Assembly (NCBI GenBank): GCA_016187935.1
Contig: JACPIU010000020.1
Span: 124,001 to 188,000, forward strand
Reading direction: 5' to 3'
DNA: 64,000 nt
Origin: Bdellovibrio sp.
Lineage (GTDB): Bacteria; Bdellovibrionota; Bacteriovoracia; Bacteriovoracales; Bacteriovoracaceae
Under the pieces are notes generated by a model, which was not told the DNA's origin, ran no database searches, and saw nothing but the letters and a program-made list of their open reading frames with translations. This document shows, piece after piece, positions 3,523-35,003 of this stretch. Made by a program: the position numbers and the translations under genes. Position 1 is the first letter of the stretch, and the number at the start of each line of letters is the position of its first letter.

Positions 3523-3636
3523 AGGCACCTTCCTTTTCAGTTGAGAAAAATTAATTCAGACGGTTACTTTTTGGAAGGGACAGAAGCAATTTTTATCTTG
3601 GGACAGAAGGGATGGCCCTGAGATAATATAGCGGGC

Positions 3637-3828: not shown

Positions 3829-3837
3829 TTGATTTTT

Positions 3838-4053
3838 TTATCTTGAGCGACGTCCAAGAGCATATCCTAATATCACGGATAAAGCACTTGCGACTCCTAC
3901 AAAAACCCACGGGCTCTCATGCACAGTTCGATCAACTCTTTGCGCGGCTTCTCTGCTGGTCTTCACCACTTGATCTTTTGCTTGATCGAGTGAATCGATC
4001 GTAGCTCTTTGAATGTCACTTACCACATGATTCAATCTTTGAATTGGTTCCAT
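3838..4053 (-). CDS. Small tail-anchored membrane protein, DUF883/ElaB-YqjD-like
   Basis: About 71 residues. An amphipathic, charged helix (SDIQRATIDSLDQAKDQVVK and following) is followed by one C-terminal membrane span (WVFVGVASALSVILGYALG) ending in RRSR. This is the layout of ElaB/YqjD/DUF883 inner-membrane proteins, some of which bind ribosomes in stationary phase; the assignment is by architecture and therefore moderate. The ATG at 4053 is preferred over the one at 4065 because GGAGAG lies four bases before it. Confidence 0.65.
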   Translation of the reverse strand: MEPIQRLNHVVSDIQRATIDSLDQAKDQVVKTSREAAQRVDRTVHESPWVFVGVASALSVILGYALGRRSR

Positions 4054-4321
4054 TATTCTCTCCATTTTTAATTCGAGAAAAATATCTCTTTTTAAATTTT
4101 ATGTAATGGCCCCCAGACCGCAAATGAGGTATATCACGGCCCTTTGTGATGCTTGATTTTATACCCGTCGCACTTTGCTTTTCAAGCAAACGCGCTTGTC
4201 TTGGGTATTAACACTCAAAATCTGGTGGGCAGAAACGCTTGGACTTTAAGGAAGGAAAAGTTAGAATTAGATTATTTTTTAAAGCACCGGCAGGTTAGAC
4301 TTCTTTCCATTAGGAGGCATA

Positions 4322-5395
4322 GTGACTCAATCTCTCAAAACATTCTTGGTTGTAGGAAGCGCTGTAATCATCATCACAATATTGCTTATTGGCCTAGGCA
4401 ACGCTCTGTTGCCCCTTTTGATTGCTTTTGGACTGGCCTATCTTAGCTTTCCCTTGATACATGGCCTTGAGAAGCGCAGGATTAAAAGAAACTATGCCGT
4501 TGCCGGAGTTTTTAGTTTGATAGCAGCGGTCGTGACTCTTATTTTGTTGCTGATCATTCCTGGTTTGATAAAGGACACCAAATTATTTTTCCATGAGTTA
4601 CCTCAAACGTCGGCCATTGCGATCGAGAAGTTGGAGCATCTCTCCAGTAAATTTGGATATGATCTCGACATCAGTGAAGAAGGGCTAAAAGATATTTTGG
4701 CCGAGCATGCTTCTGCCATCTCTGGAGATTTTTTGAAATCATCGTCTTTATTTTTGCGCGGCATCTTCTCAAATGTCATGTCCGGACTGCTGATGATTCT
4801 CAATCTTTTCTTGGTCCCGTTATTCTATTTTCATCTTGTGAATAAATACGAGGCAATCTCTAAGGAAACGCAAAACCTCCTGCCGATTCCATGGCGACCT
4901 AAGATCAACCAATATTCCCAGTTGATCAACACCGTCCTGAGCGGCTACATTCGAGGCCAAATCCTGGTTGCTTTGATCTTGGCCTGCCTCTATGGAATCG
5001 GATTCTTTATCATTGGATTACGTTTTGGTTTTCTGATCGGAATTGGCACCGGCCTTCTGAGTATAATCCCTTTTGTTGGAAGCATTTTGGGTTTCATTGT
5101 CGCAATAACCGTTGCTTTGGCCAATTTCACCGGGCTTGCAACAATCATGGGTGTGACTATTGTGTTTGTGGTTATCCAAGGACTCGAAGGACTTGTGATT
5201 ACCCCCAAATTGGTGGGCGATAAAGTTGGCCTTAGTGATCTTACCACCATGCTTGCTCTCATCATTGGCGGAAATCTCTTGGGATTTGCCGGAATGATCA
5301 TTGCCATTCCCATCGCTGCAATATTGAAGTCAATTATTCTCGATTTGAGAAGGGAATATCAGGCATTGAAGTTTTATGCAGGTCCCAGTTCCTGA
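4322..5395 (+). CDS. AI-2E family transporter (PerM-like permease)
   Basis: A 357-residue polytopic inner-membrane protein of the AI-2E/PerM family, members of which have been linked to autoinducer-2 export, ion antiport or small-solute transport. Seen: two or three N-terminal spans, a soluble stretch about residues 75-140, then a hydrophobic C-terminal half with family hallmarks LSGYIRGQILVALILACLYG, GLLSIIPFVGSILG and the conserved GNLLGFAGMIIAIPIAA. GTG start at 4322 with a strong AGGAGG four to five bases upstream. The 250 bases before it contain no recognisable gene. It converges on the zinc-ribbon/PH gene eight bases downstream. Substrate unknown. Confidence 0.88.
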   Translation: MTQSLKTFLVVGSAVIIITILLIGLGNALLPLLIAFGLAYLSFPLIHGLEKRRIKRNYAVAGVFSLIAAVVTLILLLIIPGLIKDTKLFFHELPQTSAIAIEKLEHLSSKFGYDLDISEEGLKDILAEHASAISGDFLKSSSLFLRGIFSNVMSGLLMILNLFLVPLFYFHLVNKYEAISKETQNLLPIPWRPKINQYSQLINTVLSGYIRGQILVALILACLYGIGFFIIGLRFGFLIGIGTGLLSIIPFVGSILGFIVAITVALANFTGLATIMGVTIVFVVIQGLEGLVITPKLVGDKVGLSDLTTMLALIIGGNLLGFAGMIIAIPIAAILKSIILDLRREYQALKFYAGPSS

Positions 5396-5403
5396 TAACT
5401 TTT

Positions 5404-6330
5404 TTACGCTCGTGGCACCTGTTTGTAACACAAGGACTTCACTAATTTAAAAACGGAATAGGGATCGGCAACAGAAAAGATTTTATAAGGATGGAAACGT
5501 CCTATTCTCGGAAGATAACTGGCATCACTGGCAGTTTGGATATAGACACTTCCTGACCCAAGGATGCGATCGAGCATACCTACCCGCAATTGTAAATCGG
5601 TGACCTGTGAATAATCAACGGAGACAAAATCAATTCCAAATATCCCACTTCTACCGATAAATCTTTTATTAGTGAGACAGTAATAGGTATTTCGAAATTG
5701 CAAAAAAGACGCTATCGCATAGATCACAAAGAAGCCGGCGAAAATATAATTCAATGTTTCAACCATCACTAACTGTTCTGGAAGCTCCATCTTGAAGATA
5801 TACTTCTGAAAGATGTGAAATCCATAGAGAGTTCCGAAGGCCAACAAAAGCGCAAGAGAGAGTGAAAAGAAATAACTTCCCAGATTGGGCGCTTCGGCGA
5901 AGATGACTTCTTCATCCGCATCAAAGATGCGCTTGAAAAAAACAGGCAAGTCTTTTTTATTTCGTATAGTATTGGGTCTGAGCAGGCCTTGTCGCATTGG
6001 TTCTGTGGCACTTTGAATAATGGCATATAACTCGCCATTGTCGAGGAAGAGGCCATGACATGACTGACAAGCTTCAATTGGAGTTTCAAAATTCGGCAAG
6101 TTCCCAGTCATCATTTTCTTCTGACATTTTGGGCATATTCTCTCACTAAGTGATGTATGGGCCAGTCCATTACGATAATAACTTTGGAGCAAGGTTTTAT
6201 CTTTAATGAAAAAATCAATTTCTCGCACATCGAGCCAGATACCTTTACATGTACGGCACTCATCTAAAACCACTCTTTGGGTTCGCGCTAAACGCAGCTC
6301 CATTTCGCTTGAACAATGAGGACATTTCAC
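5404..6330 (-). CDS. Zinc-ribbon (TFIIB-type) and bacterial PH domain membrane protein
   Basis: 308 residues with four parts. Residues 3-30 form a TFIIB-like zinc ribbon (CPHC and CRTC). Residues about 65-95 form a second one (CPKC and CQSC). Two membrane spans lie about 150-170 and 185-207 (FFSLSLALLLAFGTLYGF; YIFAGFFVIYAIASFL). The end is a bacterial PH domain of the YdbT/DUF304 type (YYCLTNKRFIGRSGIFG, then VDYSQVTDLQLRVG). Zinc-ribbon and PH modules are each common in bacteria; their join in one protein suggests a membrane-associated scaffold, but no function is established. Convergent with the AI-2E transporter gene. Confidence 0.8.
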   Translation of the reverse strand: MKCPHCSSEMELRLARTQRVVLDECRTCKGIWLDVREIDFFIKDKTLLQSYYRNGLAHTSLSERICPKCQKKMMTGNLPNFETPIEACQSCHGLFLDNGELYAIIQSATEPMRQGLLRPNTIRNKKDLPVFFKRIFDADEEVIFAEAPNLGSYFFSLSLALLLAFGTLYGFHIFQKYIFKMELPEQLVMVETLNYIFAGFFVIYAIASFLQFRNTYYCLTNKRFIGRSGIFGIDFVSVDYSQVTDLQLRVGMLDRILGSGSVYIQTASDASYLPRIGRFHPYKIFSVADPYSVFKLVKSLCYKQVPRA

Positions 6331-6539
6331 GGCGTACTCCCAATTGTTATTTCTTCAATATTATAACCTATTTATTTGACTGCGCAGTTCTGCATGTCAT
6401 CAGTGATGAATAGCTTTTGGCAGTTCATCTGGATATTTCTACTCCCTTTGGGATTATGTAAACTCAGGAAGATCAAACTATCACTTTTTTTGATAACTTT
6501 TTTTGGTACTTTTTACGCAAGTACCATACAATCTACAGC

Positions 6540-7610
6540 ATGACGCGCAAAACACCAACTCTAATCATCATCACTTTTTTTGCACAGGGATGTGCCACGC
6601 TCTTTAGCGATGCTTATCAAAAAATCCAATTCCAGAGCACTCCCAAAGGTGCCATCGTCAAAACGACTGACAAACAATGTCAAACTCCTTGTGAGCTATT
6701 ATTAAATAAAATAAAAGATTACGAATTTTCCATTTCGCACAATGAAGTAACAAAACAGATTCAAGTTAACTCGAACAAATACGAAGATGAGCTCTTCTGG
6801 TGGAATCTCCTCTTCTGGCCGGCTTTTTTTGTTGACATCGAAACTGAATCACATAAGGGTTTTTCACGAACGTTCTATCATGTCGACTTCACTGCCACAC
6901 GCGATGGGCAACAGTTACAATCGAGCACCTCACCTCCTGAATTTATTCAGGATCTTGAAAAGATTCCAGGCAGTACACAAGCAGAGAGATTTAGTGCCCA
7001 CAAGGTCGAATTGATTTCTAACTTTGGATTCGGAATCAGTAACCTATATTTTGGAAATTTAGATGGAGAAGGACTCCAAACATTCGCTTACGGCATGGAA
7101 ATTGGATTTAGATTTCAGAATCTGATTCCATTCCTGGGCCATCAAATATCCAGTTACGAAAAAAAATACAACCAATATTATGAAAGCGATACACGCAATA
7201 CAGACAAGGGGGATATCGATACTCAATTAAAATTCTCCGGACGAGAAAATCTGTTTGGCATTAAATTGGCCATTAACCCTCACTATCTCCAGTTTAGAGT
7301 TCTTTACTATATCGTTTACGGCAAAACGTTCAAAGCAGAACTGTCTACGAAAAATCCCATCGCACCCGATGGGAGCAGGTATACTCATACCGATATCCCC
7401 GAAGCACATCAAAATCTCCAACTTAAGTATAAAGTTCACAATTGGGGAGGAGAGGCCCTTGTTTATTTATCTAAACATATCTTCATGGGTGTGCGTGGGA
7501 TCATATCAATAATGAGATACAATGACGGCCGAGTGCCGGCAGATGCAGAAGATACTAATTTTAACAAGAATAATTTCAACTTGAAATTTAATATCGGATT
7601 GGGATTCTGA
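6540..7610 (+). CDS. Lipoprotein with PEGA-like N-terminus and beta-barrel-like C-terminus
   Basis: 356 residues. A short signal ends in the lipobox FFAQGC. A PEGA-like beta segment follows (IQFQSTPKGAIVKTTDKQCQ, CELLLNK), then a hydrophobic patch (WWNLLFWPAFFVD) that resembles the spans found after such domains. From about residue 150 the protein alternates like an outer-membrane barrel (FGFGISNLYFG, GMEIGFRFQN, FGIKLAINPHYLQFRVLYYI) and ends in NIGLGF with the terminal phenylalanine recognised by the Bam machinery. A lipid anchor plus a barrel in one chain is unusual. The start has no clear Shine-Dalgarno sequence, but an in-frame stop 27 codons upstream and no other start codon fix it. Not a recognised family. 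Confidence 0.7.
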   Translation: MTRKTPTLIIITFFAQGCATLFSDAYQKIQFQSTPKGAIVKTTDKQCQTPCELLLNKIKDYEFSISHNEVTKQIQVNSNKYEDELFWWNLLFWPAFFVDIETESHKGFSRTFYHVDFTATRDGQQLQSSTSPPEFIQDLEKIPGSTQAERFSAHKVELISNFGFGISNLYFGNLDGEGLQTFAYGMEIGFRFQNLIPFLGHQISSYEKKYNQYYESDTRNTDKGDIDTQLKFSGRENLFGIKLAINPHYLQFRVLYYIVYGKTFKAELSTKNPIAPDGSRYTHTDIPEAHQNLQLKYKVHNWGGEALVYLSKHIFMGVRGIISIMRYNDGRVPADAEDTNFNKNNFNLKFNIGLGF

Positions 7611-7749
7611 CGATCAATAGGGTGTTTGAACAAGAAACTGCGGGAAGGAATAAAATTCACAATTTGCAGGGAACTGACCATACATCCCTACGGCCCCACC
7701 TCTTCCTCCTAACTAGATAAATAGAAGATTGGTTCTTAACCGCAAGAAT

Positions 7750-9285
7750 CTACAGCGCGGCCTGAAACAACATGGCAAAAGGTTTAATCAGATAATAAAC
7801 CACTTTTTTAGCAAAAGTGATGTTATCGAATTTGTGCTTGCGCAGAGTCTTGCGACTATCCAAATAGATTGTTCCTTTGAGCTTATGGTCATATTCCGCG
7901 CGCATGGCCTGCGCCAATTCGGGTTCGCCGAAGCAGAAAATTCCCATTTCGGCATTGTATTTGGTGGAACGTGGATCAAGATTGTAAGTTCCAACCATAA
8001 AGCTGTCATGATCAAACACGAAGGCCTTCACGTGGGTGCCAAATCGGGCCTTTTCCACACCGGCATTGACCACCGGATAACTATCGGGAATTTTTCCTAC
8101 GAAAGCGTAGGGACGGAGACCCTTCTTAATCCATGAGGGAATGATGGAGTTGAAGACCGCATTCACATAAATGGCATCAGTGGAATAAAGACTGTTGGTG
8201 AGAACAGAAACTTTTTTCTTGGCCTTTAGCACGTCCTTTAAAACAGCGCGGGATTCTTTGTCGGGAATAAAGTAGGGCGAATCGATAGTCAATTCTTCTT
8301 TGACGGCGCCCATGTATTGATTAACGATCCCACGCATCCCTTTGGTCTTTCTATATTCTCGCCCCCAACCCGGATAATCCGCGGTAAAAATTAGATTACT
8401 ACACTGTCCGGTGGGAGAGAGGGCGGCCTGCTTGCTTCCCAGTTCCTCAATTTCGCCCAAGAGTTTGCGATCTTCATCGCTTTCGACTAAAAACTTGCGG
8501 GCCTTATCCAATTTCTCTTGTTCTTTTTTTAAGCTGCCTTTTAATATCTTGTAATGGCGGTCCAAGACCTTATCTTGAGAAGCGACTTGTTTGAAATACG
8601 AATCATCTTTGCCATTTTCTTCCAATTTATTTTGAATCCATTTGGTGTCCTCGGCGATGAGATGTCGGTATTTTTCCAGATCGAGCTTCTGAGATAATTT
8701 ATCGTTCCAAAAAATTTCAAAGCTGACGCTCATATCGCGCACTAAAGGGCCATTAATGTAGATGTCCTTATCAATGAAATTGAATTTATCACTGAGATCG
8801 AAGTACTCATCCGCTATATTGCGTCCCCCCGTGATGGCCTCTTTGCCGTCTATTGCGAGCAACTTTCGGTGGCTGCGATATTGAAATTTCAAAAATTTTG
8901 CCATGGATTCGATGTTGTAATATTTCACCTCAATTCCGGCCTGCTCCAATTGCAAGGCATGATAAGCATCGATCTCAGGAATAATCAGAAAGTAATCCAG
9001 CAGGACTCGCACCTTCACTCCCTCTTTGGCCTTCTTCACCAGCGCCTGATTGAAGACCCGCGACGATGGACTGGTGTCGTAAATAAAATATTCAATATCA
9101 ATGCTTTCTTTTGCACGCTCAATCATTTTCAAACGGGCATAGAGCGAGGCCAAGCCGTGGTCGTAAATGGTAATGGCATGGGGAGCATTGGAAGTGGCCT
9201 TAAAGACCTGCAGCTCACTGGCCGCGTAGGTGGCAAATGAAGCGTAAATCAATAAAAACACCAGAATTTTCATGGCATGAGACAT
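7750..9285 (-). CDS. Secreted phospholipase D / cardiolipin synthase-like protein
   Basis: Hydrolase or phosphatidyltransferase of the PLD superfamily, 511 residues, with a signal peptide (KILVFLLIYASFATYA). Both HKD motifs are intact: HRKLLAID at residue 139 with downstream GGRN, and HVKAFVFD at residue 418 with GTYNLDPRS. Between them sits an inserted charged coiled stretch (about 250-290). The export signal places it in the periplasm or outside, where it could act on prey or own phospholipids; that role is inferred. The start at 9285 has GGAGG four bases before it. It lies on the same strand as the hemH fusion, 85 bases downstream of it, so cotranscription is possible. Confidence 0.88.
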   Translation of the reverse strand: MSHAMKILVFLLIYASFATYAASELQVFKATSNAPHAITIYDHGLASLYARLKMIERAKESIDIEYFIYDTSPSSRVFNQALVKKAKEGVKVRVLLDYFLIIPEIDAYHALQLEQAGIEVKYYNIESMAKFLKFQYRSHRKLLAIDGKEAITGGRNIADEYFDLSDKFNFIDKDIYINGPLVRDMSVSFEIFWNDKLSQKLDLEKYRHLIAEDTKWIQNKLEENGKDDSYFKQVASQDKVLDRHYKILKGSLKKEQEKLDKARKFLVESDEDRKLLGEIEELGSKQAALSPTGQCSNLIFTADYPGWGREYRKTKGMRGIVNQYMGAVKEELTIDSPYFIPDKESRAVLKDVLKAKKKVSVLTNSLYSTDAIYVNAVFNSIIPSWIKKGLRPYAFVGKIPDSYPVVNAGVEKARFGTHVKAFVFDHDSFMVGTYNLDPRSTKYNAEMGIFCFGEPELAQAMRAEYDHKLKGTIYLDSRKTLRKHKFDNITFAKKVVYYLIKPFAMLFQAAL

Positions 9286-9370
9286 AATTCCTCCAAATCA
9301 ACCCTTGCGTAAACCATGAGGCATGATTTTTGACAACCAAAAAGGTCTCTATGAACAATTTTTACATGGG

Positions 9371-11761
9371 TCAGGAAGCCATTTTAGTATCAGAATTTGG
9401 AATGGCCTTAACCAGCCAAAAAGGAATAACAAGTACCAGAGCGCCTAATAAATACGGCACCGTGGAACCATAGTGCCAATAAATGAGAGAGGCAATAAAA
9501 GGACCAACCACTCTGGCCAAGGCCCCAAGCGAGCGAAAAATCCCCAAGACACTGCCCTGAGCGCTGGGAGGGGCCAGAAGCGATACCAAGGCGGTCATAC
9601 AAGGAATAACCATGGCCGATCCGAGCGCCAAGAATGCCAGACCAAAATAGAGACCCAAACTGCTCTTGGTGAAAGCAATACACACTAATCCGGGAATGAC
9701 CGCTAATAGGCCTTGCAAGACCATGCGTTTTTCCCCCACGGAACGCGCCTTTCGTCGCACAAATCCCCCTTGGACGAGCACGATAATCAGGCCCACAAAA
9801 ACAAACATACCGGCATTTTGCATGGAGGTGAAGCTTAAACGCTCTACCGCTAAAAAGGTCAGGGTAAATTCCATACCGGAAAAACTGCTCAAAAATAAAA
9901 AGTAACCCACATTAGCACGATTGACCCCTTTGTAGGGAAGGGGTGTAAACATTTTCAAGGGATTGAGCAGGCGTCTTTCAGTCTGTTTACTACCATGACG
10001 TTTTTCAGGCGGATTGGTTTCGGGAAATTTTTTGATGACCAAAAATAAATTAAAGCATGAGAGTGTGAAAGCAATGAAGGCCGCACCTGAAAAAGGATTG
10101 ATTCCCCACTTCTTTGCACCTTCGACCAATGCGGTTAAATCAAGCATCATGGAGAGACCACCTATGGCGGGGCCTAAAATAAATCCTAAGGCAAAGGCAA
10201 TTCCAATCACGGCCATACCTCTTGAGCGATTGGCCTCATCAGTCACGTCGGCCACCACCGCACTGGCAGTGGAAATGTTCCCTGCCATCATTCCGCCAAG
10301 CAAACGGGCCAAGAGAAGCAAGGTGAAGCTGCCGGAAAAAAACCAGATCAGATAGCTTAAGGCCAGACCACTTATGGTCATAATGAGAATCGGACGCCGG
10401 CCAATCTTATCCGAAAGCTCTCCCCAAAAAGGCGAGGAAAGAAACTGTAACAGGGAATATAAAGCGCCTAGAATACCCCCGAATAAAACCAAGGATTGTG
10501 CATCCAACGTGGGTGGTATCACATCAGTGGCGTGCCCCGATAAAAAAGACATTCCTTGAAAAACCATCAGCAAAAATGGATTGCTGGGATCATGCTCTAA
10601 ATAGTACCTGGCCAATGCCGGAAAAAGCGGGAAAATGATGGAGAAGCCGATCAGGTCTAAAAAGAGAGTTATAAAAACCAGGTTCAGGATGCGCTTCTCA
10701 CCCTCTCCAATCGGTCGTGATTTATAGGTGACTTCAGGAATCCCCTCGGTTATTTCCTCACTATAACTCATTTGCGCAAGGGCCTGCTGATCCTTGACTG
10801 ACAAGGCCCTTAAATATTCCGCGAAGGCCCGTGCCCATTCATCGTCATCGTTTAAACAGGGAATTGATACAATATGCGCCCCCATAGGACGAACTGCCAA
10901 ATCTAATTCATGCCCGATTTCCACCAAAGTTTCCAAGCAATCAACCACAAAGCTCGGACAGTAGACGGCAATATTTTTGGCACCTTTGTGGGCCAGCTCT
11001 TTGGCCTTATCAATGGTGGAAGGAGTCAACCATTCTTCTGGGCCAAAACGTGACTGGAAACTGAGATGAACTTTATCTTGCCACAGAGCGGGCAACTTGG
11101 ATTTTAAGAGAAGATAGGTTTTAAAACATTGCTCATAATAGGGGTCCTTTTTTTCCAACACAAAACGCTTTGGCAATCCATGAAAGCTCAACATCAAGGC
11201 ATCTATATTCCCTTGATTTAATACTTTTTCAATTCGACGAACACTCAAATCAATATAGGCCTTTAAAGACCAAAAATGATCCGTGCCCAAAACCGGAACG
11301 CTCCCGAGAGCGTGTGTTACGGCATCATGAGCGCTCGCCGTGGTGGTATCACTATATTGGGGGAACATGGGAACAAACATGGTATTCAAATTGGGATTCT
11401 TGCCTATGACATCGGCAACCTTTTTTTCTCCCAAAATGTATGCGCTTTCAACATCGATATTTTGACCGCGCAGATGGTGCTGAATCTTATCCTTAAATTT
11501 TTCCGTGATGGCAACTAAGGGCAATTGCCCATTGGGTAGGGCAATTGACTGATACAGTTTCCGAGTCTTTCTGGGACGAAATGGCAGGATAAATAAGTAG
11601 AGTATCGGAATCCACAAGAAACGCGGTAAATCCACCACTCTTGGGTCCAACAAAAACTCTTTCAAATATCCTCGAATATCACGCAATTTAAGCGAGCGAG
11701 GCGAACCGAGCTGGAGCAAGAGAATTTTTTGACGGACACCAGGGACAGGATTCATATTCAT
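9371..11761 (-). CDS. hemH: Ferrochelatase fused to a major facilitator transporter
   Basis: One uninterrupted frame of 796 residues. Residues about 10-325 are ferrochelatase, which inserts iron into protoporphyrin or coproporphyrin in the last part of haem synthesis. Seen are LLQLGSP at the start, VPMFPQYSDTT, the catalytic histidine H194 in SFHGLPKR and the partner glutamate E277 in VVDCLETLVE. A linker of about 30 residues joins it to a 12-span MFS transporter (about 357-790) with the loop motif GELSDKIGRRPILI and the 2-3 loop and helix-5 pattern of the DHA1 drug-efflux group (GPAIGG). No stop or frameshift separates the halves. The fusion suggests coupling of haem or porphyrin production to export or import, which is inference. 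N-terminal start at the first ATG, with only a weak ribosome site. Confidence 0.9.
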   Translation of the reverse strand: MNMNPVPGVRQKILLLQLGSPRSLKLRDIRGYLKEFLLDPRVVDLPRFLWIPILYLFILPFRPRKTRKLYQSIALPNGQLPLVAITEKFKDKIQHHLRGQNIDVESAYILGEKKVADVIGKNPNLNTMFVPMFPQYSDTTTASAHDAVTHALGSVPVLGTDHFWSLKAYIDLSVRRIEKVLNQGNIDALMLSFHGLPKRFVLEKKDPYYEQCFKTYLLLKSKLPALWQDKVHLSFQSRFGPEEWLTPSTIDKAKELAHKGAKNIAVYCPSFVVDCLETLVEIGHELDLAVRPMGAHIVSIPCLNDDDEWARAFAEYLRALSVKDQQALAQMSYSEEITEGIPEVTYKSRPIGEGEKRILNLVFITLFLDLIGFSIIFPLFPALARYYLEHDPSNPFLLMVFQGMSFLSGHATDVIPPTLDAQSLVLFGGILGALYSLLQFLSSPFWGELSDKIGRRPILIMTISGLALSYLIWFFSGSFTLLLLARLLGGMMAGNISTASAVVADVTDEANRSRGMAVIGIAFALGFILGPAIGGLSMMLDLTALVEGAKKWGINPFSGAAFIAFTLSCFNLFLVIKKFPETNPPEKRHGSKQTERRLLNPLKMFTPLPYKGVNRANVGYFLFLSSFSGMEFTLTFLAVERLSFTSMQNAGMFVFVGLIIVLVQGGFVRRKARSVGEKRMVLQGLLAVIPGLVCIAFTKSSLGLYFGLAFLALGSAMVIPCMTALVSLLAPPSAQGSVLGIFRSLGALARVVGPFIASLIYWHYGSTVPYLLGALVLVIPFWLVKAIPNSDTKMAS

Positions 11762-11841
11762 AAAAATCCGACCGTCTCGATAAGTTGACGAACATAAAAA
11801 ATTTGGCCAATGTGCCGCTTAATTTAACAAAGGAATGCCAT

Positions 11842-12384
11842 ATGAGTAGGTCGGTTAGCAAGACTAATCCCACGACTAGTCCTAAGACTAATTCTCGACG
11901 ACAAGGTCGCCCAGAAAAAGACCTAAAAAATCTTCAATTAGGCCAGTCCATTACAAATTACCCCACCACCTATTCTCCTTTCGTGCTGGAATCCTTTCCC
12001 AATCGACACCCTGAATCTCCGGCATGGACCACATTGATTTGCCCGGAATTTACTTCCCTCTGTCCAAAGACAGGCCAGCCGGACTTCGCTCATCTTACCA
12101 TTAACTATATTGCTGACCGCAAAATGGTAGAATCCAAGTCTTTGAAACTGTATCTTTTCAGTTTTCGTAATCATGGCGATTTTCATGAGGATTGCATCCA
12201 AACCATTTGCAACGATCTGGTAAAACTCATGTCACCTAAATATATTGAAGTCATCGGTGAATTCACACCGCGAGGGGGCATCTCCATTTACCCCTTTGCC
12301 AGCTACTCCTGTGACGCTTCCGAGTATCAAAACCTAAAAAAGCAAAGATTTCTCCACTACGCACCCCATGCCTATACTGCTTAA
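11842..12384 (+). CDS. queF: NADPH-dependent 7-cyano-7-deazaguanine reductase QueF
   Basis: Reduces preQ0 to preQ1 in queuosine tRNA-modification synthesis. The 180-residue product has the QueF signature: catalytic cysteine C74 in [12 protein letters not shown] with proton donor D81, then [20 protein letters not shown] containing the substrate-binding glutamate and histidine. The size fits the short unimodular (Bacillus-type) enzyme, plus an N-terminal Ser/Thr/Arg-rich extension of about 40 residues. The ATG at 11842 follows AAGGA at eight bases; the upstream in-frame ATG has none. It is divergent from hemH, with about 80 bases between them for both promoters. No other queuosine genes are nearby. 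Confidence 0.93.
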
Positions 12385-20672: not shown

Positions 20673-20696
20673 GGTTGTATAGACATGAGGATTTTT

Positions 20697-22739
20697 ATGG
20701 GCCGGAGCATACTTACAGTGGCGTTGTGCTGGTGCTTAATCATTACGCAAATGATTGTACCAGAACAGGTATATGCCAGTGGTTCGGGAAACGGATCAGG
20801 AAGCGGAGGAGATAAAAGCAAATGTGCCCGCGACCTATTTAACAGGGAAAACGGACGAAGCGGTCAAAGTAGCGGCACTGGTCAGAGTGAAGATGAATTC
20901 GAAAGCGAAATTGCGGGCGGAACCATTGTTGATCTTGAGGGAGACACTGGTTGCGAGAATGATGGCGGAACTGGTGTAAGTGCCGCCTATCATACCATGG
21001 AATTTGCCACCCTCATTGTGGCCATCGCCGCGACTATAGCCGGTATCCAATTCGTCATCTCCTGTGTCAGCCAGCCTTCCGCGTGGGTCTTTTTTCTCAC
21101 TTCTCTATTCTGGATTATTGCTGAAATTGTTCAGACGGCCCAAACCAAAACCGCTGCGGATCGCCGACTCTCCATTGTGACCAACGTCTCAGAAGATGCG
21201 GTGGAAAAACAGACAGCGGCCATCAACGAGGCCATGGAGCAAACCCAACAGGCCGCGGATCACGCCAGTACCCGTTATACGATTACAGTCGTTGCCGCTG
21301 TTCTCTACGTCATCGCTGCCGTCGTGGCCTTAATTGAAGGGATCCTGCACGTTATCCCTACTGTTAATTATAATGACCAATGCAGTGGTGCAGGTATGAA
21401 CACGCCATCACACTTAAAATTCAAAAAACAATCCATTGCAAGAAATACCAATAAACCAATCAATCGTGAAGATCGCTCACTTGAAAGCGTGAACTCATAT
21501 TCGTATCCCTCTTGGACGACGAATATGATTAAACAACTCCTCCCCTTTATTGGAATTTCTGATGCTCAAGCAACCAATGATGACGGCAGTGGAAGTGGTA
21601 GTGGAAGTGGAGGGGATTCGAACAATACCGATAAGCAGCTTGAAGGTATGGGAATGGTGGGACTGCTTCTCACCATTCTGATGACCGTCATCATCGTACT
21701 GCAAACGGCATTATCCTCCGTCAAATCAAGCGGTTTTGGTCGGGCAGTGGTTATGGGTGTGGTGGCAGGTTTTGTGATTGCAGCAGCTGTTATTATCAAA
21801 GAGAAAAAAGAACAACTTGAAGACAGAGTTAAAAAATTTAAGGAACTTCTGGCAAAACTCAAAGCTGCGGCATCTCCTACATCCACGATAGATGTTAAAG
21901 GTTCAACAGCTAAATCTAATGGCAATAACTCCGATAGTACAATTGTCGATTCGACAGAGCTACCCACTGACAATCCTCTGGCCGGGAATTGTGCCACCGG
22001 CAATCAGCAGAAGCTCCCTATAAAGGCCGATTTAGGCTGCAAAAATAAACCGATGGTTGTAGAAGGCAACACCAGTCTCCCAACCAACAATGTGATTGAA
22101 GCACCTGAAGGGCTGTTGCAAGGGATGAATAATTCGAAGACATATGCAAAGGACTTGGCAGAAGGCAGAGGTATTACTTCCAGTATGCGACAGTATGATA
22201 GCAGTGCCTATGCTAAATTCAATAAGATGAAAAAAGAATTCGGCAAAAAATATCTCGAACTCATAAAGAAGTATAAAGGTGAAACAGTAGACCCTATTGA
22301 AAAGGCGGAAAAAGATTTCCGTAAAGATCTCTTGGCAAAAGTAAATAATGAACTGAGCAAGTACTCTCCCGCACAATTAAATTCCATGACAGGCCAGCTC
22401 CTGGGCTTCGATTCACCTGATTTGAAAAATAAGGTTGAGCTTAATAAAGATGAAACCATCTTTAACAAAGGCCCCAAGGCAACTGTCCCGGGAGATTCAA
22501 AAAATACCGCTGCAAAAATAAAATTGGATGATTATGGCAATGTGGCCGCCAGCTCAACCGACATCGAAGAGGTTGACAGTGCGGAAGCGTTGCAAGGTCT
22601 CAAATTCAAAGAAAATGATATTGCTAAAGATACCGGAGCTAGCCTCTTTTTGATCATTACCAATCGCTATCGCAAAACTGCTTACCCCCTAATTTTTGAT
22701 AAGGAACAAAGTGTCCCTGCAAAAGGAAAACGACCATGA
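20697..22739 (+). CDS. Exported five-TM protein, SIF/RYR paralogue 1
   Basis: About 680 residues, no family recognised. Layout: signal peptide ending in VYASGS; a Gly/Ser-rich acidic segment; two spans (about 102-122 and 128-146); a helical QT-rich stretch with AMEQTQQAAD; a third span (about 195-215); a loop with a GSGSGSGSGG island (about 297-306); two more spans (about 320-340 and 348-367); a coiled coil (KKEQLEDRVKKFKELLAKLK); and a soluble, lysine-rich half ending in DTGASLFLIITNRYRKTAYP. The same order recurs in the next gene and in the minus-strand gene at 32078-34786. The ATG at 20697 is chosen for GAGG at six bases and for the promoter. Its stop overlaps the next start (ATGA). Likely an inner-membrane envelope component. 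Confidence 0.75.
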   Translation: MGRSILTVALCWCLIITQMIVPEQVYASGSGNGSGSGGDKSKCARDLFNRENGRSGQSSGTGQSEDEFESEIAGGTIVDLEGDTGCENDGGTGVSAAYHTMEFATLIVAIAATIAGIQFVISCVSQPSAWVFFLTSLFWIIAEIVQTAQTKTAADRRLSIVTNVSEDAVEKQTAAINEAMEQTQQAADHASTRYTITVVAAVLYVIAAVVALIEGILHVIPTVNYNDQCSGAGMNTPSHLKFKKQSIARNTNKPINREDRSLESVNSYSYPSWTTNMIKQLLPFIGISDAQATNDDGSGSGSGSGGDSNNTDKQLEGMGMVGLLLTILMTVIIVLQTALSSVKSSGFGRAVVMGVVAGFVIAAAVIIKEKKEQLEDRVKKFKELLAKLKAAASPTSTIDVKGSTAKSNGNNSDSTIVDSTELPTDNPLAGNCATGNQQKLPIKADLGCKNKPMVVEGNTSLPTNNVIEAPEGLLQGMNNSKTYAKDLAEGRGITSSMRQYDSSAYAKFNKMKKEFGKKYLELIKKYKGETVDPIEKAEKDFRKDLLAKVNNELSKYSPAQLNSMTGQLLGFDSPDLKNKVELNKDETIFNKGPKATVPGDSKNTAAKIKLDDYGNVAASSTDIEEVDSAEALQGLKFKENDIAKDTGASLFLIITNRYRKTAYPLIFDKEQSVPAKGKRP

Positions 22740-24925
22740 AAAAATTTAATCTTTTTCTCACCCATTTGTTATGTCATTGCATGCTCTTCTACTCCATTGC
22801 CTACTCATGGAATGCGTACGGTCTGGACGATCAAAATGGACTTCCTGCCATAAGTGAGGAACACGAGGAATTTGTAGATACAACTACAGGAAGTGGCAAT
22901 AGCACAGGAAGTGGCACTGAGGGGTTATTACCAGATGACCAAACTTTTGAAGATTGCTCTCAGTACGGTGACGATGAAACCGCAATTAATGCCTGCAACG
23001 ATCGCAATACCGCTAAGGCCGGGCAATTGGGCGGTTCAGGAACCGGTTCAGAAGATGGGTTAAGCAGCGCCGATGATATCAATGCCGAAGCCACCCATAA
23101 TGACATCGTCATGGCCCTATTTGCCCTCCTCGCTGCATTTATGGGGGCCGCGTATATTATCAAGTGCGTAAATCAGATATCTGCCTATATCTTCTCCATC
23201 GGTGCTGTCATATTGATCATTGCTGAAATTGTCGGTTGGGTAAACTGGGAACAAGGTTCTAAAGTCAGACTCCAGGCAGTCACAAATACCGATGCCAAAA
23301 CTGTGGGAGATCAGACAAAAACCTTAACCGCGGCCATGACACAAACCCAGAAAGCAGCTGAATGGGCGAGTAGCAGGGCCAGTTGGATGGATGCCGTCAA
23401 GGGTATCTGGACGGCCGCCACGGTTATCGCCATCATTGAAGGTATTTGCGGAGTTATTCCTGTTTGTGCCGCAGTTAAAAGTGACATCTGTGTCGGTGCT
23501 TTTATTAACAGACCAAGTAACACGCAAGGACTCTACGCCAATTTCTATCGCCCCGAAAATTATGACTTGAATGCCTATTTAGGAATCCCTTCTTCCATAC
23601 CCGTTCAGGTCGAGAACGAGCTGCAAGCAACAAAGTTTTCGGATTTCATCTTACAAACTAAACCAATCCCGCAGACAGCATTAGATATTCCCTCACAATT
23701 CGAGTTTGAACAAAAACAACAAGAACAAAAAACGGCCGAAGCCGAATCGTCCTTCATGATGCAGGCCCTAAGAAATATCCTCCCCGATGCCAAGGCGGAC
23801 GATGGCACCCAGCAAACAATTATGGATGTCCTCATGGGTGTTGCCATTGCAGCGGGTTTTATCACAGTCTACTATGCTTGGAGTTCTATCGCTAAACAAG
23901 GCTTCATACGGGCGGCCTTTATTTTAGTTATGACCGTCTTTATGTGGTGGGGAGCGGCCATTGCACGAGACAAGGCCGACAAGCTCCAAGCTCGTGTGGA
24001 TGCTTATCAGAAACTCATCACCGCACTTCAAGCAGCTCCTCCTGGTGTTCCCGGTGCTCCTGCGGGAACAACGCCCATTTCAGGCGGTGCAGGCAACTCG
24101 GCCCCACCGATCTCTGAGTCTGTGGCCATTGATCCAGGTTCTGGACTTGGAGGTTGCACATCGGGTTCCGGAACCGGAATGCAAAGTAACGATTGTAGTT
24201 GTACCACTACCAACTCATGTACCACCGTTCAGATACCAAGTAATCTGAGTATTCCCGCTATTGGTTTTGATGGAGTGGATAGTCTCACATCTTTTGGCAA
24301 AGATACCGCCAATGGCGCCAACAACTTGGCCAGGAATCAAGGCCCGGGTAAAAGTGTAGTCAATGCCGGAACTACCGCTTTTGCAGCAAAAATGAAAAAG
24401 GCCATTAACAAGCTCAAAGGCAAATACTTGGAGCTCGCCAAGAAAAAAGGCGAGAAGAATCCTCGCACCCTGGAAAATTTGCAAAAGGAAATCCTGACAA
24501 AAGTGAAAAAAGATTTGAAAATGATGGATCAGAAGCTCACGCCTGCTGTTCTTGCACAACTTGGAAATGTTGGAGGTGGAAGTGCCACCAATGACAAAAT
24601 TGATGCAAAAATGAAGGAAATCGGCGTTACCCAGTTAGCAAAATCTAAGGGAGTGAACTTATCCATGGATAATGGAAATAGTTCCAACGGAAAACTGTTT
24701 GATGACGAAGCTGCGGTCGAAGCTGATGTGACCAAGGCCGAAGCAGTAAACACGGCCGATGCCTTAAATGGTTTTGAGAGTACAGAGCAAGATATTTTAA
24801 AAGACTCGGGAGTTTCAATCTTTGAACAACTTTCCTCACGCTATAGGAAATCAGCTTTCCCCATCTTTTTTATGAAGAAAAAAGATATTCACGGCGGCGA
24901 GAACTCAACGCCTCCCACTCCGTAG
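22736..24925 (+). CDS. Exported five-TM protein, SIF/RYR paralogue 2
   Basis: 729 residues with the architecture of its upstream neighbour: signal peptide (FNLFLTHLLCHCMLFYSIAYS), an acidic Gly/Ser segment (TGSGNSTGSG), two spans (about 123-143, 149-169), the shared QT-rich helix (AAMTQTQKAAEWASSR), a third span, a loop, two further spans, a coiled coil (DKADKLQARVDAYQKLITAL), a Pro/Gly and cysteine-containing linker (SDCSCTT-like region with CTSGSGTGMQSNDCSC), then a lysine-rich helical part and the terminal motif DSGVSIFEQLSSRYRKSAFP. A conserved cysteine follows the first span in both (IIKCVNQ here, VISCVSQ in paralogue 1). Translationally coupled to paralogue 1 by a four-base overlap, suggesting a hetero-oligomer. 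Function unknown. Confidence 0.75.
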   Translation: MKKFNLFLTHLLCHCMLFYSIAYSWNAYGLDDQNGLPAISEEHEEFVDTTTGSGNSTGSGTEGLLPDDQTFEDCSQYGDDETAINACNDRNTAKAGQLGGSGTGSEDGLSSADDINAEATHNDIVMALFALLAAFMGAAYIIKCVNQISAYIFSIGAVILIIAEIVGWVNWEQGSKVRLQAVTNTDAKTVGDQTKTLTAAMTQTQKAAEWASSRASWMDAVKGIWTAATVIAIIEGICGVIPVCAAVKSDICVGAFINRPSNTQGLYANFYRPENYDLNAYLGIPSSIPVQVENELQATKFSDFILQTKPIPQTALDIPSQFEFEQKQQEQKTAEAESSFMMQALRNILPDAKADDGTQQTIMDVLMGVAIAAGFITVYYAWSSIAKQGFIRAAFILVMTVFMWWGAAIARDKADKLQARVDAYQKLITALQAAPPGVPGAPAGTTPISGGAGNSAPPISESVAIDPGSGLGGCTSGSGTGMQSNDCSCTTTNSCTTVQIPSNLSIPAIGFDGVDSLTSFGKDTANGANNLARNQGPGKSVVNAGTTAFAAKMKKAINKLKGKYLELAKKKGEKNPRTLENLQKEILTKVKKDLKMMDQKLTPAVLAQLGNVGGGSATNDKIDAKMKEIGVTQLAKSKGVNLSMDNGNSSNGKLFDDEAAVEADVTKAEAVNTADALNGFESTEQDILKDSGVSIFEQLSSRYRKSAFPIFFMKKKDIHGGENSTPPTP

Positions 24926-24951: not shown

Positions 24952-25680
24952 CTATTTTTTCTTTTTCTTGGCAATCATAAGACCCACTAAGAGCGCCAGA
25001 CCTACACCACCATAGAGCATCATGTCTGAGGTACTGAGTCCTCCGCCACCGGCCTTTTTCTTCTGGTTGGCGATGTCTGGATTGACCCCTTGATCGGGAA
25101 TGAAAGTACTATCATCCAACAAGTTCTCATCCTTTTTCTTCAAGGCCAAGTCACCCGATGCCGCTTTCTGACGGAAAACTCGTAGAGTGGCCACGATATT
25201 GTCAAAGATGGCCTGATAGGCGGAGTAGTGATCTTTGGCGACGGAGAAAGTCACGGCAACACCTAAATCCTCTTTCACGGTTGCCAGATAACGGGTGTAA
25301 AAACCCGGAACTTCGGAAGCCAGATGGAGAGCATCAACCCATTGATGATCGTTGATCGTTTTTACCGAGGCATACTTCGCTTCAGAAACTTGGGTTCGCC
25401 CACCAGGCAGCGTGAAAGTTTTTTGTCCTTTCAAATAAGCTTGATATTGATCCAAGCTGTCCTGCGGGCCGCGAATTTTAGCGGCAAGAATAATAATGGC
25501 CTCTTTCTTTCGCTCTTCATTTTCACTTTGGCATACCCATTCAGTACCCTCCAGAGCACATTGCCACCCTGGGGGCAATTCAAACTCTGTGTATTGACTG
25601 GTAAATCGTTTAGCGAAGGCCACATCAAGTAGCCCAGCAAGAACAAAGACAGAAACTAAAATCACCTTTTCTATTGCCAT
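24952..25680 (-). CDS. Secreted protein with C-terminal sorting-like tail
   Basis: 242 residues, no family recognised. A signal peptide (VILVSVFVLAGLLDVAFA) precedes a compact domain with two cysteines (WQCALEGTEWVCQSE) and a PsbP/DUF1795-like rhythm (FELPPGWQC, FYTRYLATVKEDLGVAVTFS). A linker leads to a tail made of a lysine-glycine stretch (KKKAGGGGLSTSD), a membrane span (MLYGGVGLALLVGLMIA) and KKKKK. This tripartite end resembles GlyGly-CTERM or MYXO-CTERM sorting signals. AAGGG eight bases before the ATG supports the start. Convergent with paralogue 2; its mature form may be cell-surface anchored. Confidence 0.65.
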   Translation of the reverse strand: MAIEKVILVSVFVLAGLLDVAFAKRFTSQYTEFELPPGWQCALEGTEWVCQSENEERKKEAIIILAAKIRGPQDSLDQYQAYLKGQKTFTLPGGRTQVSEAKYASVKTINDHQWVDALHLASEVPGFYTRYLATVKEDLGVAVTFSVAKDHYSAYQAIFDNIVATLRVFRQKAASGDLALKKKDENLLDDSTFIPDQGVNPDIANQKKKAGGGGLSTSDMMLYGGVGLALLVGLMIAKKKKK

Positions 25681-31151: not shown

Positions 31152-32078
31152 CCTGTCTGATAAGACTTCTTTTCCGAACTCTTCCAACTCATGCCCAAGC
31201 GCCTGGACTTCGCGGTAAAACTCCAGGAACTTTTGGGAGGTCAGAGGAATGCCTGAACGAGGCAGACGCGCCTCTTCTTCGTGTAATTCACTGGTCATTT
31301 TTTCCACCAATCCCACCAGATCACCCCGATGGGCACCGCCGATTAATCCTTGGGCCTGGGCTTTCATCCAAAAGCCGGATAAAAAAGTGAGATCGGTGGG
31401 AGTGTAATATCCCCGTTGAGCACTCACCAAGGCCTGCCATAATTGGGCCAGCAGGCCCCGAATCTCAGCGTCTTGATATTTCTTCAAGGTCTTATTTTTG
31501 CGCGCCAATTCTAGGATGGTATCGAGCAAGGTGGCCATATCGCGTCCGCGACAAGATTCCAGCTCCCAAAAGGTGCGTAATAATTTTTGCACCCGCTCGG
31601 CCGGCATGAGATGTTCACCGGCCAATTCCGCCCCCATGGCAAGAATCACTTGGTGATCTTCCTTGGCCAAGCTCGGACTTAGACCAACCGTGAGGAGCGC
31701 TCTTAAGTCTTGTATTTGGGTGTAGGAGGGGCCGAAAGGCTCAGGCCATTTATTATGGGGCAGGAGTTTACGAAAGGCCCCTTCACAGCGTTTATTGGCC
31801 TGTCCTGCCAAGATCATGGCCTGATCAAATTGATGGGTGGAAATGGCGCTTGGGACTTTGGCCGCTGGTTTTTCCTCTATGGCCCGTTTGGACACTTGTA
31901 AATCGACGGACCTTTGTGGAGAGATGGTAATTTCTTTTTGCACTTCCCGATACTGCGAAAAAGACACGCTGTTGTCTTCACCATCGTAAAAGATCCAGAT
32001 CACTCCGCTCACGACAACAATCATGAGTATGACCTGGACTCTTCTATCGTAAAAAATCTTATACCAGCGCTTACCCAC
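31140..32078 (-). CDS. Single-span membrane protein coupled to SIF/RYR paralogue 3
   Basis: 312 residues, no family recognised. A basic N-terminus (GKRWYKIFYDRRVQ) precedes one membrane span (VILMIVVVSGVIWIFY), then a helical periplasmic domain rich in Leu, Glu and Gln with two cysteines (NKRCEGAFRK, ELESCRGRDMA). The GTG start shares its G with the TAG stop of the upstream paralogue 3, so the pair is translationally coupled and probably interacts. Type II membrane topology, N-in. The convergent thioesterase gene overlaps the 3' end. Confidence 0.7.
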   Translation of the reverse strand: MGKRWYKIFYDRRVQVILMIVVVSGVIWIFYDGEDNSVSFSQYREVQKEITISPQRSVDLQVSKRAIEEKPAAKVPSAISTHQFDQAMILAGQANKRCEGAFRKLLPHNKWPEPFGPSYTQIQDLRALLTVGLSPSLAKEDHQVILAMGAELAGEHLMPAERVQKLLRTFWELESCRGRDMATLLDTILELARKNKTLKKYQDAEIRGLLAQLWQALVSAQRGYYTPTDLTFLSGFWMKAQAQGLIGGAHRGDLVGLVEKMTSELHEEEARLPRSGIPLTSQKFLEFYREVQALGHELEEFGKEVLSDRLDR

Positions 32079-34786
32079 TATTCCGCGATGTTAAATATTC
32101 TTCGATATCGTTGCGAAATAAGTTGGAAGATACTGATCTCTTCCCCCTTATTAATATCGTCTACCGTAACTTCTAAATCATCGATACCGTCGTTGTTATC
32201 CTTTTTAAGGTTTTGGGCGATAGATGGGTCTGTCTTGGCCGTTTCAAAACCGCCGTCGATGACTACTTCTGGTTTATGTCTCGAAGTAGCAGTTATTGCA
32301 GTCTGCCTTTGCTGTATTCTCTCTGGGGCCACTCCCATTGAAAATGATTTATTTCTCTTAAAATTCTCGCGTGCACTGGACGACATCTTGCTCAAAGCTG
32401 CTTCGGCAATTTTTTTCATTTGATTAAAAAATCCTTGCCGATTCTCCTTAAGCTTCATCGGTTTGTTTTTACCAATCTCTTTCACCTTGCCTAGGAATGA
32501 AGGATCTATTTTTTCTTTAGCTTCATCGGAAAGTGCATTGTAGGCATTGATCATATCGTTTTTAGTCTTTAACATCTGCTGATAATTCTCGACCTGTTTT
32601 TGATCATATAACTTTTCCAACTTGTCCATCGTGGCCTGTGTATTTGCGATGTCTTTACCCATGGTCTTGGCCAAGTTCATAGCTTCATTTGAAATTCCTC
32701 TCGCCCCACTCACCTCTTTCGCCAACAATATGGCACGATTGCCCTGTTGGGCAAGAAGTGGCGGCAGATTGGGAACTTTCGCTAATTGTTCCATTTGGGA
32801 CTTGGACTGAGAGGGACATTTTCCTCCCTCTTCTTTACCAAAGCATGGAAACTTTTTATTTTTCGGGAGAGTAAACGACATACCTGTGGATGTTGCCGCC
32901 AAGGCATCCTCAACAGATGATTTAAATCGTGAGACAATCCAGTTTGTGAAGGAAGCAAGGACACTCTTATTCTCTTGAGTATCATTGTCGGCATAATTTC
33001 TGTATTTAATTCCGCCATCGATTGAACTTTCATCTATAACAGGTGGAGGGGTTGGAGTTGGAGTTGGAGTTGGGGTTGCAGTATCATTGGAAGCCCCTGG
33101 CGCTGGTGTTGCGGTTGCTCCAACATTTGGGGTTGCAGTTGGGGTTGGGGTCGGTCTTTCTTCAACACTTGTACCCTCGCCTTTCATATTTTTCCATTTA
33201 GAAAGAAGCTCATTGATCGTTGCAATACGACTATCCATTTCAGAGATAACTCCCATTGTCACACCCCAAGCAGCAATCGCCAAAACAGACATGACACTGA
33301 AAAGAACTATTCTCTGAGGAGGACGGGTTAAAAATTTGCTGGAAAGATTGGTATAGCCGCTGAATAGAACAAAGAGCACAACGAGAACCGCAGCTGTGAG
33401 ACCTATACCCTTGATCCAATCACCGGCAGAAGCTTCCGCCGCTGGGAAAATAAAATCTATAATTTTCATCATCCAGTTTTTACCTTCCAAGGCAACTTTC
33501 TGCTCTTCACTCATGGGAGTAAAGAAACGTTGCACATCGACTAACTTACACATGGCCCCACAAGCTCCTCCTGGAGGCGTGCAATGGGGAAAGAGATTAC
33601 CTTGCAAATTGATGCTCACCGACTTCATCTCGGCGCGTACAGCTGTGTATGCAATAGTGGCCGGCTCAGTTGAAACGCCCATACAAGTCGTGGTCCACCC
33701 ATCACAAATCACTTCAATCCGGGCCATATCAAGATCACTCAGTGCAGCTGGCGGAACACAAGTATTGGAAAAAACCTGATTGTACTCTGTCTGATACGCA
33801 GTAATATGTGACATGGTATAAAGAGAACCTGCTTTACACCAATTACAATCTATCTCTACTACGGCCCCCCCTGCACTGGCGGCAGCACCCTTCGCCATAA
33901 GTTCCAATTCGACATTCAGGGCCTTCAGTGTTGCAAGGCTGCTCGTCATTGCAGCGTTATCTGAAATCGTGAATCCAATTTCAATACCCGTGGCGGTTAA
34001 AAACGACACCGCCGACGCTCCCTGGAGCCAAGCTTTCGTGATAGCAATGTCACGTATATTATTCAAGGCTTCTTTTTGTTTTTCCAAGGCCCCAAACTGG
34101 GCCGAATTGATCACCTTCTTCTCATCAACCGTGAGTTGTGCTTCCTGGGCCGCAAATTCGCTTTCACTTAATTCTGCCGTACCACTGGTGTCTTCCGCTT
34201 TTTTGCGCGATAACCCCTGCGCTGCCTCACATTTTAAATAGGCTTCCTCATTCGCGCCTAATTGATTCATGGCATCGGCGTACCTAATCCAAGCTTGCAC
34301 TTCCCCGGCCAAATAAAATGCTCCTCCAGCTGCGGCCGCAATGGTACCGGCGGCACATTTCCCCGTGCAACCAAGCACCAGAAAAAGTGAGACAAAGGCC
34401 ATGGCAAGAAACATTATTCCAGTCAAGACATCGGCAGTTATAAAGAGGGCCGAATCCTCTGGCTTGTTAGCTTTAATAGCAGCAAATTGATCTGTGAGTT
34501 TATCCGAATCCTCTTTATTCTCTTCGGAAAGTTTGGCGTCCTGCTCTGCCTTTCCCTCTTCACCTCGCTGCCTCAAGGCGGCACAATCTATTTCCTTCCC
34601 TTCTTGTAACCGCCTAATCTCAGCGCAAGACGTACCATTTGCCTTGGCAAACTCCTCATCACATGTATCCGCCGCATAGGCCACACCAGAAATGACGTTT
34701 GGAAAAATATTAAAGGTCAAAAAAGGCATCGCAAGCTGAATATAAAAAAGCGAAGCTACGCAGGCGTATAGCAATAATTTTTTCAT
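32078..34786 (-). CDS. Exported five-TM protein, SIF/RYR paralogue 3
   Basis: About 902 residues. It repeats the plan of the tandem genes at 20697-24925: signal peptide (LLLYACVASLFYIQLAMP, cleavage near AYAADT), a charged segment, two spans (GIMFLAMAFVSLFLVLGC; AAAAGGAFYLAGEVQAWI) with a cysteine just after the first, a third span, a long loop with about ten cysteines, two further spans (IGLTAAVLVVLFVLFSG; VLFSVMSVLAIAAWGVTMGV), a coiled segment (MDSRIATINELLSKWKN), a (Pro-Thr)n linker, a lysine-rich helical domain and the terminal motif EEISIFQLISQRYRRI. The larger loop distinguishes it. The ATG at 34786 begins a proper signal peptide; the in-frame extension to 34858 does not. A possible TTGACT/TATTTT promoter lies just upstream. 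Coupled to the 312-residue gene. Confidence 0.72.
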   Translation of the reverse strand: MKKLLLYACVASLFYIQLAMPFLTFNIFPNVISGVAYAADTCDEEFAKANGTSCAEIRRLQEGKEIDCAALRQRGEEGKAEQDAKLSEENKEDSDKLTDQFAAIKANKPEDSALFITADVLTGIMFLAMAFVSLFLVLGCTGKCAAGTIAAAAGGAFYLAGEVQAWIRYADAMNQLGANEEAYLKCEAAQGLSRKKAEDTSGTAELSESEFAAQEAQLTVDEKKVINSAQFGALEKQKEALNNIRDIAITKAWLQGASAVSFLTATGIEIGFTISDNAAMTSSLATLKALNVELELMAKGAAASAGGAVVEIDCNWCKAGSLYTMSHITAYQTEYNQVFSNTCVPPAALSDLDMARIEVICDGWTTTCMGVSTEPATIAYTAVRAEMKSVSINLQGNLFPHCTPPGGACGAMCKLVDVQRFFTPMSEEQKVALEGKNWMMKIIDFIFPAAEASAGDWIKGIGLTAAVLVVLFVLFSGYTNLSSKFLTRPPQRIVLFSVMSVLAIAAWGVTMGVISEMDSRIATINELLSKWKNMKGEGTSVEERPTPTPTATPNVGATATPAPGASNDTATPTPTPTPTPPPVIDESSIDGGIKYRNYADNDTQENKSVLASFTNWIVSRFKSSVEDALAATSTGMSFTLPKNKKFPCFGKEEGGKCPSQSKSQMEQLAKVPNLPPLLAQQGNRAILLAKEVSGARGISNEAMNLAKTMGKDIANTQATMDKLEKLYDQKQVENYQQMLKTKNDMINAYNALSDEAKEKIDPSFLGKVKEIGKNKPMKLKENRQGFFNQMKKIAEAALSKMSSSARENFKRNKSFSMGVAPERIQQRQTAITATSRHKPEVVIDGGFETAKTDPSIAQNLKKDNNDGIDDLEVTVDDINKGEEISIFQLISQRYRRIFNIAE
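33051..33077 (-). repeat. Hexanucleotide repeat coding for Pro-Thr
   Basis: Four and a half units of GTTGGA (plus-strand reading) inside paralogue 3, with more degenerate GTTGGG units downstream. They encode the alternating Pro-Thr linker between the membrane part and the C-terminal domain. Unit length is two codons, so slippage would change linker length without breaking the frame. Confidence 0.75.
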
Positions 34787-35003
34787 TAAAAATACCCCAA
34801 TGTATTGTGAGACAGTCAAGCTCACCAATAATTGTAACATTGGGTGGAAAAAGCACAAAAAAATTCTTACTCAGAAATTAAAAAGCATGGAACCTCACCA
34901 GAAAGATCTTTAATAACAGCTGGTTACATATTTAACGTTTTATAGTTCAATGAGGATAGACCTGCCTAAAAAAGCGGACATCCTGATTGAATGTCTGGTT
35001 TAA

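Follow-up and report, generated by a model that had tools for sequence, protein, structure and literature searches.

Short C-terminal elements shared by otherwise unrelated proteins are known as a kind of sorting or docking signal. The GlyGly-CTERM/rhombosortase and PEP-CTERM/exosortase systems use such elements on Sec-exported proteins, type IX secretion in Bacteroidota combines a Sec signal peptide with a folded C-terminal domain of about 70-80 residues and, in the cytoplasm, the C-terminal tips of SSB and FtsZ are short docking peptides that bind a hub. MYXO-CTERM likewise marks the C-termini of many unrelated Sec-exported proteins within a single lineage with a short element (PMC11980579). 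The present work deals with a conserved tail of about 20 residues that ends three proteins encoded in a stretch of 64,000 nucleotides from the Bdellovibrio sp. assembly GCA_016187935.1 (contig JACPIU010000020.1, positions 124,001 to 188,000), here called the window, and further proteins of Bdellovibrionota. We favour, with a probability of roughly 60%, the explanation that this tail is a modular recognition tag of exported Bdellovibrionota proteins which has been expanded in Bacteriovoracaceae and docks onto a shared partner.

The tail resembles the MYXO-, GlyGly- and PEP-CTERM tags in being a short stretch of homology that unrelated exported proteins share within one lineage and that is present many times per genome, but it lacks the parts that define a CTERM tag. 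A hydropathy scan gave no transmembrane-like stretch within 60 residues of the carriers' C-terminus, column counts over 102 tails revealed no conserved Cys, Gly-Gly or PEP signature, there is no Arg-rich end following a helix, many carriers pass through the membrane several times, and no sortase is known. With type IX substrates the carriers share the Sec signal peptide and a signal at the C-terminus of proteins that are otherwise unrelated, although the tail is far shorter than the folded type IX domain and both phylum and machinery differ. A further likeness is to the SSB and FtsZ tips, in which a linker and acidic residues are followed by a short hydrophobic motif near the end that is read by a common partner; unlike these cytoplasmic proteins the tagged carriers are exported.

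A sequence-only reading of the window had placed three related tails in it, and all three were found where it put them, each at the end of an open frame:

20685..22739, + strand: carrier 1 (P0001, 684 amino acids), with signal peptide, about five hydrophobic helices, a Cys-containing C-terminal half and the C-terminal tag
22614..22688, + strand: tag of carrier 1, NDIAKDTGASLFLIITNRYRKTAYP, with 22 residues after RY
22736..24925, + strand: carrier 2 (P0002, 729 amino acids), the ATG of which overlaps the end of carrier 1
24788..24862, + strand: tag of carrier 2, QDILKDSGVSIFEQLSSRYRKSAFP, with 26 residues after RY
32078..34858, - strand: carrier 3 (P0003, open frame of 926 amino acids), likely starting with MKKLLLYAC at 34786
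32081..32161, - strand: tag of carrier 3, DDINKGEEISIFQLISQRYRRIFNIAE, with 8 residues after RY

P0001 and P0002 are homologous over two long stretches (best E 5e-26), and P0003 is linked to both by profile comparison only (99.8% probability).

The profile consensus of the tail reads [DN]-[DE]-I-x7-[SND]-[IL]-[FW]-x-[IV]-[IL]-[ST]-x-R-Y-x-[KR]-[ST]-[AG]. Its anatomy was counted in 102 tails from the window genome and its relatives, set in one register after removal of three short chance matches and of two tails without the core pattern (KKY and NTY). Counted from the first residue of the hydrophobic pair, position 0 is I or L, position 1 F or W and position 4 I, L or V, R occupies position 7 in 101 tails and Y position 8 in all 102; these five positions are partly set by the row filter, which itself required [RA]Y. 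Upstream, D is found at position -9 in 57 and I at position -8 in 83 of the tails, and 98 tails have S (59), N (14), D (13), P (8) or T (4) at position -1. Further downstream, S or T follows at position 5 in 96 tails, K or R at position 10 in 75, S or T at position 11 in 86, and A or G at position 12 in 80. Among the RYR sites in the six-frame translation of the window, the pattern that had been proposed fits exactly the three tails, but the last position of its RYR is free to vary, with R in only 14 of the 102 tails, and the conserved core is RY.

Residues such as the Ser, Asn, Asp or Thr ahead of the hydrophobic pair typically cap the N-terminus of a helix. A helix is plausible and, with hydrophobic and basic residues mixed in it, it might simply bind membranes directly as an amphipathic helix. 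We regard this as highly improbable, because the helical hydrophobic moment of the tails does not exceed the one obtained after shuffling them (mean z 0.11, 102 tails) and the near-invariant R-Y argues for specific recognition. The C-terminal position and the modular nature of the tail would also suit a tag for degradation or quality control that an envelope protease recognises. Tail-specific proteases act on the final residues of their substrates, whereas the motif sits inside the protein end, with a median distance of 14 residues from RY and a range of 5-35, and we give this explanation hardly any credence.

The genome to which the window belongs (4.40 Mb in 48 contigs) was examined by six-frame profile searches. 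Profile A1, built from 11 tails, recovers its own 11 with E values from 8e-21 to 1.5e-11 and gives seven weaker matches, four of which lie at protein ends (E 0.0015, 0.007, 0.013 and 0.074) and three in open frames of 31-55 amino acids (E 1.4, 2.1 and 5.6). Profile A2 (89 rows) returned the same set together with further candidates; the three that were fetched are proteins of 131, 1184 and 901 amino acids with the motif at the end, and one more (E 0.24, open frame of 44 amino acids) was left out of the count. The motif is thus not confined to the window: 18 carriers are present in the genome, all of them ending 8-31 residues past RY or AY. A sub-type with A for R, DT[IL][FW]xx[IV][ST]xAY, is seen in L303 (1948-4650), L301 (1197-1589), L302 (1357-4908) and L039 (4751-6205); L301, with 131 amino acids including the signal peptide, is nearly a bare tag.

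When 104 carriers were stripped of their tails and clustered pairwise, 31 clusters resulted, the largest with 39 (cluster 0) and 16 members. Profile comparison joins cluster 0 with clusters 5, 1, 8, 3, 7, 27, 22 and 10 (at 98 to 99.8% probability for 1, 3, 5 and 8, and at 93-96% for several more) and cluster 1 with cluster 2, such that most carriers belong to one multi-pass membrane superfamily. Taken alone, this would agree with a tail that amounts to no more than the conserved terminus of a single expanded membrane family and packs onto its own protein without any partner. We consider that account unlikely, as several tagged bodies fall outside the superfamily. Clusters 6, 9, 11, 12, 14, 17, 18, 20, 25 and 29 are among those without a link to it, and an exported protein of 131 amino acids and proteins of about 300 amino acids from another family also carry the tail, as does a DUF3011 protein of 1105 amino acids (L074). 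The clearest unrelated body is cluster 9, in which L072 and L080 are YkuD_2 L,D-transpeptidase-like (E 1e-46 and 4e-26). YkuD_2 is present in 24 of 70 family genomes searched. Among the open frames that the profile recovered in fetched loci, a subset of all YkuD_2 matches, the tail was found in 7/7 long enzymes complete at their end (786-828 amino acids; G004, G009, G075, G124, G135 and two of G257) and in 0/28 shorter frames complete at their end (202-506 amino acids); four further rows, truncated where their locus stops, duplicate long versions included in this count. The long L,D-transpeptidases have acquired a lengthy extension at the C-terminus, and this extension ends in the tag. Because tagged YkuD_2, DUF3011 and ~300-residue proteins exist, the tail travels with C-terminal extensions and not only as the end of one family; judged by these sequence comparisons, it is a modular C-terminal element, apparently for recognition, beyond the best-kept end of a single family.

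Pfam and NCBIfam contain no model whose match above the curated cut-off covers the tail, the only such matches being YkuD_2 and DUF3011 in the bodies. Comparison of profiles with solved structures yielded no significant match either for the tail (best E 0.31) or for the membrane family (best E 0.075), and the three weak matches of the tail are all internal.

The proposal that the tail is the best-conserved part of its carriers held for most but not all orthologues. Over 23 residues, tail identity between the window genome and its genus relative G002 amounts to 96, 96, 91, 91, 96, 96, 96, 78 and 61% in nine orthologue pairs, compared with body identities of 76, 44, 50, 71, 67, 62, 77, 47 and 72% in the same order. 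The tail is therefore better kept in eight of the nine pairs, clearly so in seven (91-96% versus 44-77%) and more weakly in one (78% versus 47%), while the ninth is reversed (61% versus 72%).

The distribution of the tail centres on one family (f1), which we take to be Bacteriovoracaceae and to include Halobacteriovorax marinus SJ; the family name is also in use in PMC11656739. In 39 genomes, comprising the window genome and relatives, profile A1 at E <= 0.01 matched 25, namely 24 of 25 from the family and one of 14 others. Across 240 genomes of the phylum, A2 at E <= 1e-3 matched 78 (68/72 within the family, 10/168 outside). For profile A6 and 368 phylum genomes at the same threshold the count was 157, with 123/129 in the family and 34/239 outside it, where the spread is partly due to construction as the 93 rows of A6 include tails from families f8 and f12; near-identical tails were thinned in a row set. 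Absence elsewhere together with poor conservation in relatives would have spoken against a tag, and the 18 carriers and the 123 family genomes point the other way. Matches outside the family fall in families f6, f8, f11, f12, f20 and f27, where tails are diverged and sparser. They are weak by E value yet terminal: 19/19 from ten genomes and 27/30 from 24 genomes sit at the protein end, three of the latter 30 loci having been left unresolved by the script and one (L266) having been read 254 bases off the expected place. Six family genomes gave no tag match at E <= 1e-3 (G005, G086, G160, G234, G254 and G292). Three of these belong to genus g40 (G086, G160, G234), and in G114, the only other genome of that genus, a single weak match was obtained.

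Elsewhere in the phylum, outside the family, exported genes with the tag lie next to each other (L299 of G128, 3068-8322; L295 of G038, 8454-12287), with products of about 800 and 458 amino acids, to which G128 adds another of 506 amino acids. These adjacent genes are perhaps an ancestral operon. Alignment A3 of 23 membrane carriers was too diverse for a search against named genomes, and a closer alignment used in its place hit three loci, which belong to the Bdellovibrionales bacteria GWA2_49_15 and nzgw164; GWA2_49_15 is the nearest named relative with the P0001/P0002 gene pair.

It had been asked whether all carriers are exported, and this is mainly the case. A signal-peptide-like start was found in 78 of 90 carriers and in 93 of 184 neighbouring genes (Fisher p = 2.6e-9), both signal peptides and helices having been called by crude hydropathy scripts instead of a trained predictor. 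About ten of the 12 carriers missed by the rule show a signal peptide by eye and two do not. The prevalence of such starts also sets the carriers apart from type I secretion substrates, which have no N-terminal signal peptide.

In alignment A3, C474, C489, R392 and R702-Y703 of the tag (P0002 numbering) are invariant, and an internal AxA (A352, A354) just ahead of the last hydrophobic pair is exact in 21 of the 23 sequences. In the window this site is found as follows:

21561..21575, + strand: internal signal-peptidase-I-like site DAQA|T of carrier 1, preceding the last hydrophobic pair, with cleavage as a prediction
23786..23800, + strand: internal AxA site DAKA|D of carrier 2, its A352 and A354 near-invariant in the 23 aligned carriers
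33428..33442, - strand: internal AxA site AAEA|S of carrier 3

The AxA looks like a signal-peptidase-I site, and cleavage there may split each membrane carrier into two chains. The loop that joins the last two hydrophobic helices is predominantly basic in its charged residues, with K+R at 41 and D+E at 15. Furthermore, L121 of G016 (1438-2679) encodes a natural homologue of 414 amino acids in which a signal peptide is fused directly to the C-terminal half of the membrane carriers, an architecture that fits this half as an exported unit. Because of the invariant Cys pair, the AxA site, L121 and the K+R-rich loop, the C-terminal half of the membrane carriers is probably periplasmic.

This location bears on the alternative that the tail directs proteins to the outer membrane or across it, comparable to type IX or CTERM/sortase signals. 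A C-terminal element on many Sec-exported proteins per genome with unrelated bodies follows the logic of MYXO-CTERM (PMC11980579). On the other hand, the tail has neither transmembrane helix nor Cys or Gly-Gly signature, and the many carriers with several membrane helices would remain in the inner membrane. A search for SprA, the type IX translocon, matched 0/68 family genomes, but also 0/14 control genomes, and weighs on neither side. Outer-membrane sorting has a small probability in our view; a docking signal is favoured over a surface-sorting signal because many carriers are membrane-anchored and the C-terminal half of the membrane carriers is probably periplasmic.

A docking tag could operate as follows. 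Sec would export the carrier, and the tail would form a short helix on the periplasmic side, N-capped by Ser, Asn or Asp before I-[FW] and with the acidic D-I just ahead. A shared partner in the periplasm or inner membrane would read the [IL][FW]..I[ST].RY face and would thereby bring the membrane carriers together with soluble enzymes, L,D-transpeptidases among them, in a single envelope assembly. The suggestion of a recognition tag for a transport or sorting factor is partly supported: the element is conserved, C-terminal and present on mainly exported, unrelated bodies, but no receptor was identified.

Several findings weigh against docking. The gene neighbours of the carriers include no common partner. 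L296 (808 amino acids) and L303 (901 amino acids) have no recognisable signal peptide in their open frames, and the crude calling of signal peptides and helices counts here as well. The number of hydrophobic helices, often five past the signal peptide, would by itself place the tail in the cytoplasm, and a periplasmic C-terminal half requires that the third helix, strong in P0001, does not span the membrane. R of the core is replaced in four of the 18 genome carriers, which have AY and not RY as in the other 14. Finally, a structure prediction for P0002 from nine sequences has a mean pLDDT of 41.9, too poor to be carried into a fold search; it contains a helix at 695-707, directly after S694, at a pLDDT of only about 36.

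The most recurrent neighbours, a VanY-like carboxypeptidase and a thioesterase (names that reflect our reading of the sequences and not a family search), stand beside cluster 1 in 10/15 genomes each. Together with the transpeptidases, the VanY-like neighbour of cluster 1 provides a thin link to the cell wall. It is conceivable, albeit doubtful, that the tail represents a phylum-wide periplasmic docking code of Bdellovibrionota, in which one receptor gathers polytopic membrane proteins from a lineage-specific family, perhaps cut in two at their internal signal-peptidase site, as well as enzymes such as the L,D-transpeptidases, and so forms an envelope machine, expanded with predation in Bacteriovoracaceae. 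A literature search, with most subscription journals outside its scope, returned no description of such a tag.

An Rfam scan of the window gave no match. Next to carrier 2, an exported protein is encoded at 24952-25680 (- strand) that ends in GGGG, a hydrophobic helix and KKKKK, an ending which we take to resemble a GlyGly-CTERM anchor; homologues occur in fetched carrier loci of four genomes. A protein of 936 amino acids with a lipoprotein-like start (40967-43777, - strand) has an ending that presumably resembles an intramolecular chaperone of tail fibres.

In Bacteriovoracaceae many exported proteins have no known function, and the tag that they share brings as many as 18 of them in a genome into one group. 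One tail model lets annotators find tagged exported proteins, and the tag offers a simple rule that separates ordinary L,D-transpeptidases from those that would be recruited to an envelope machine. The tail can also serve as an experimental bait, the binder of which is likely to be the centre of this uncharacterised machine.

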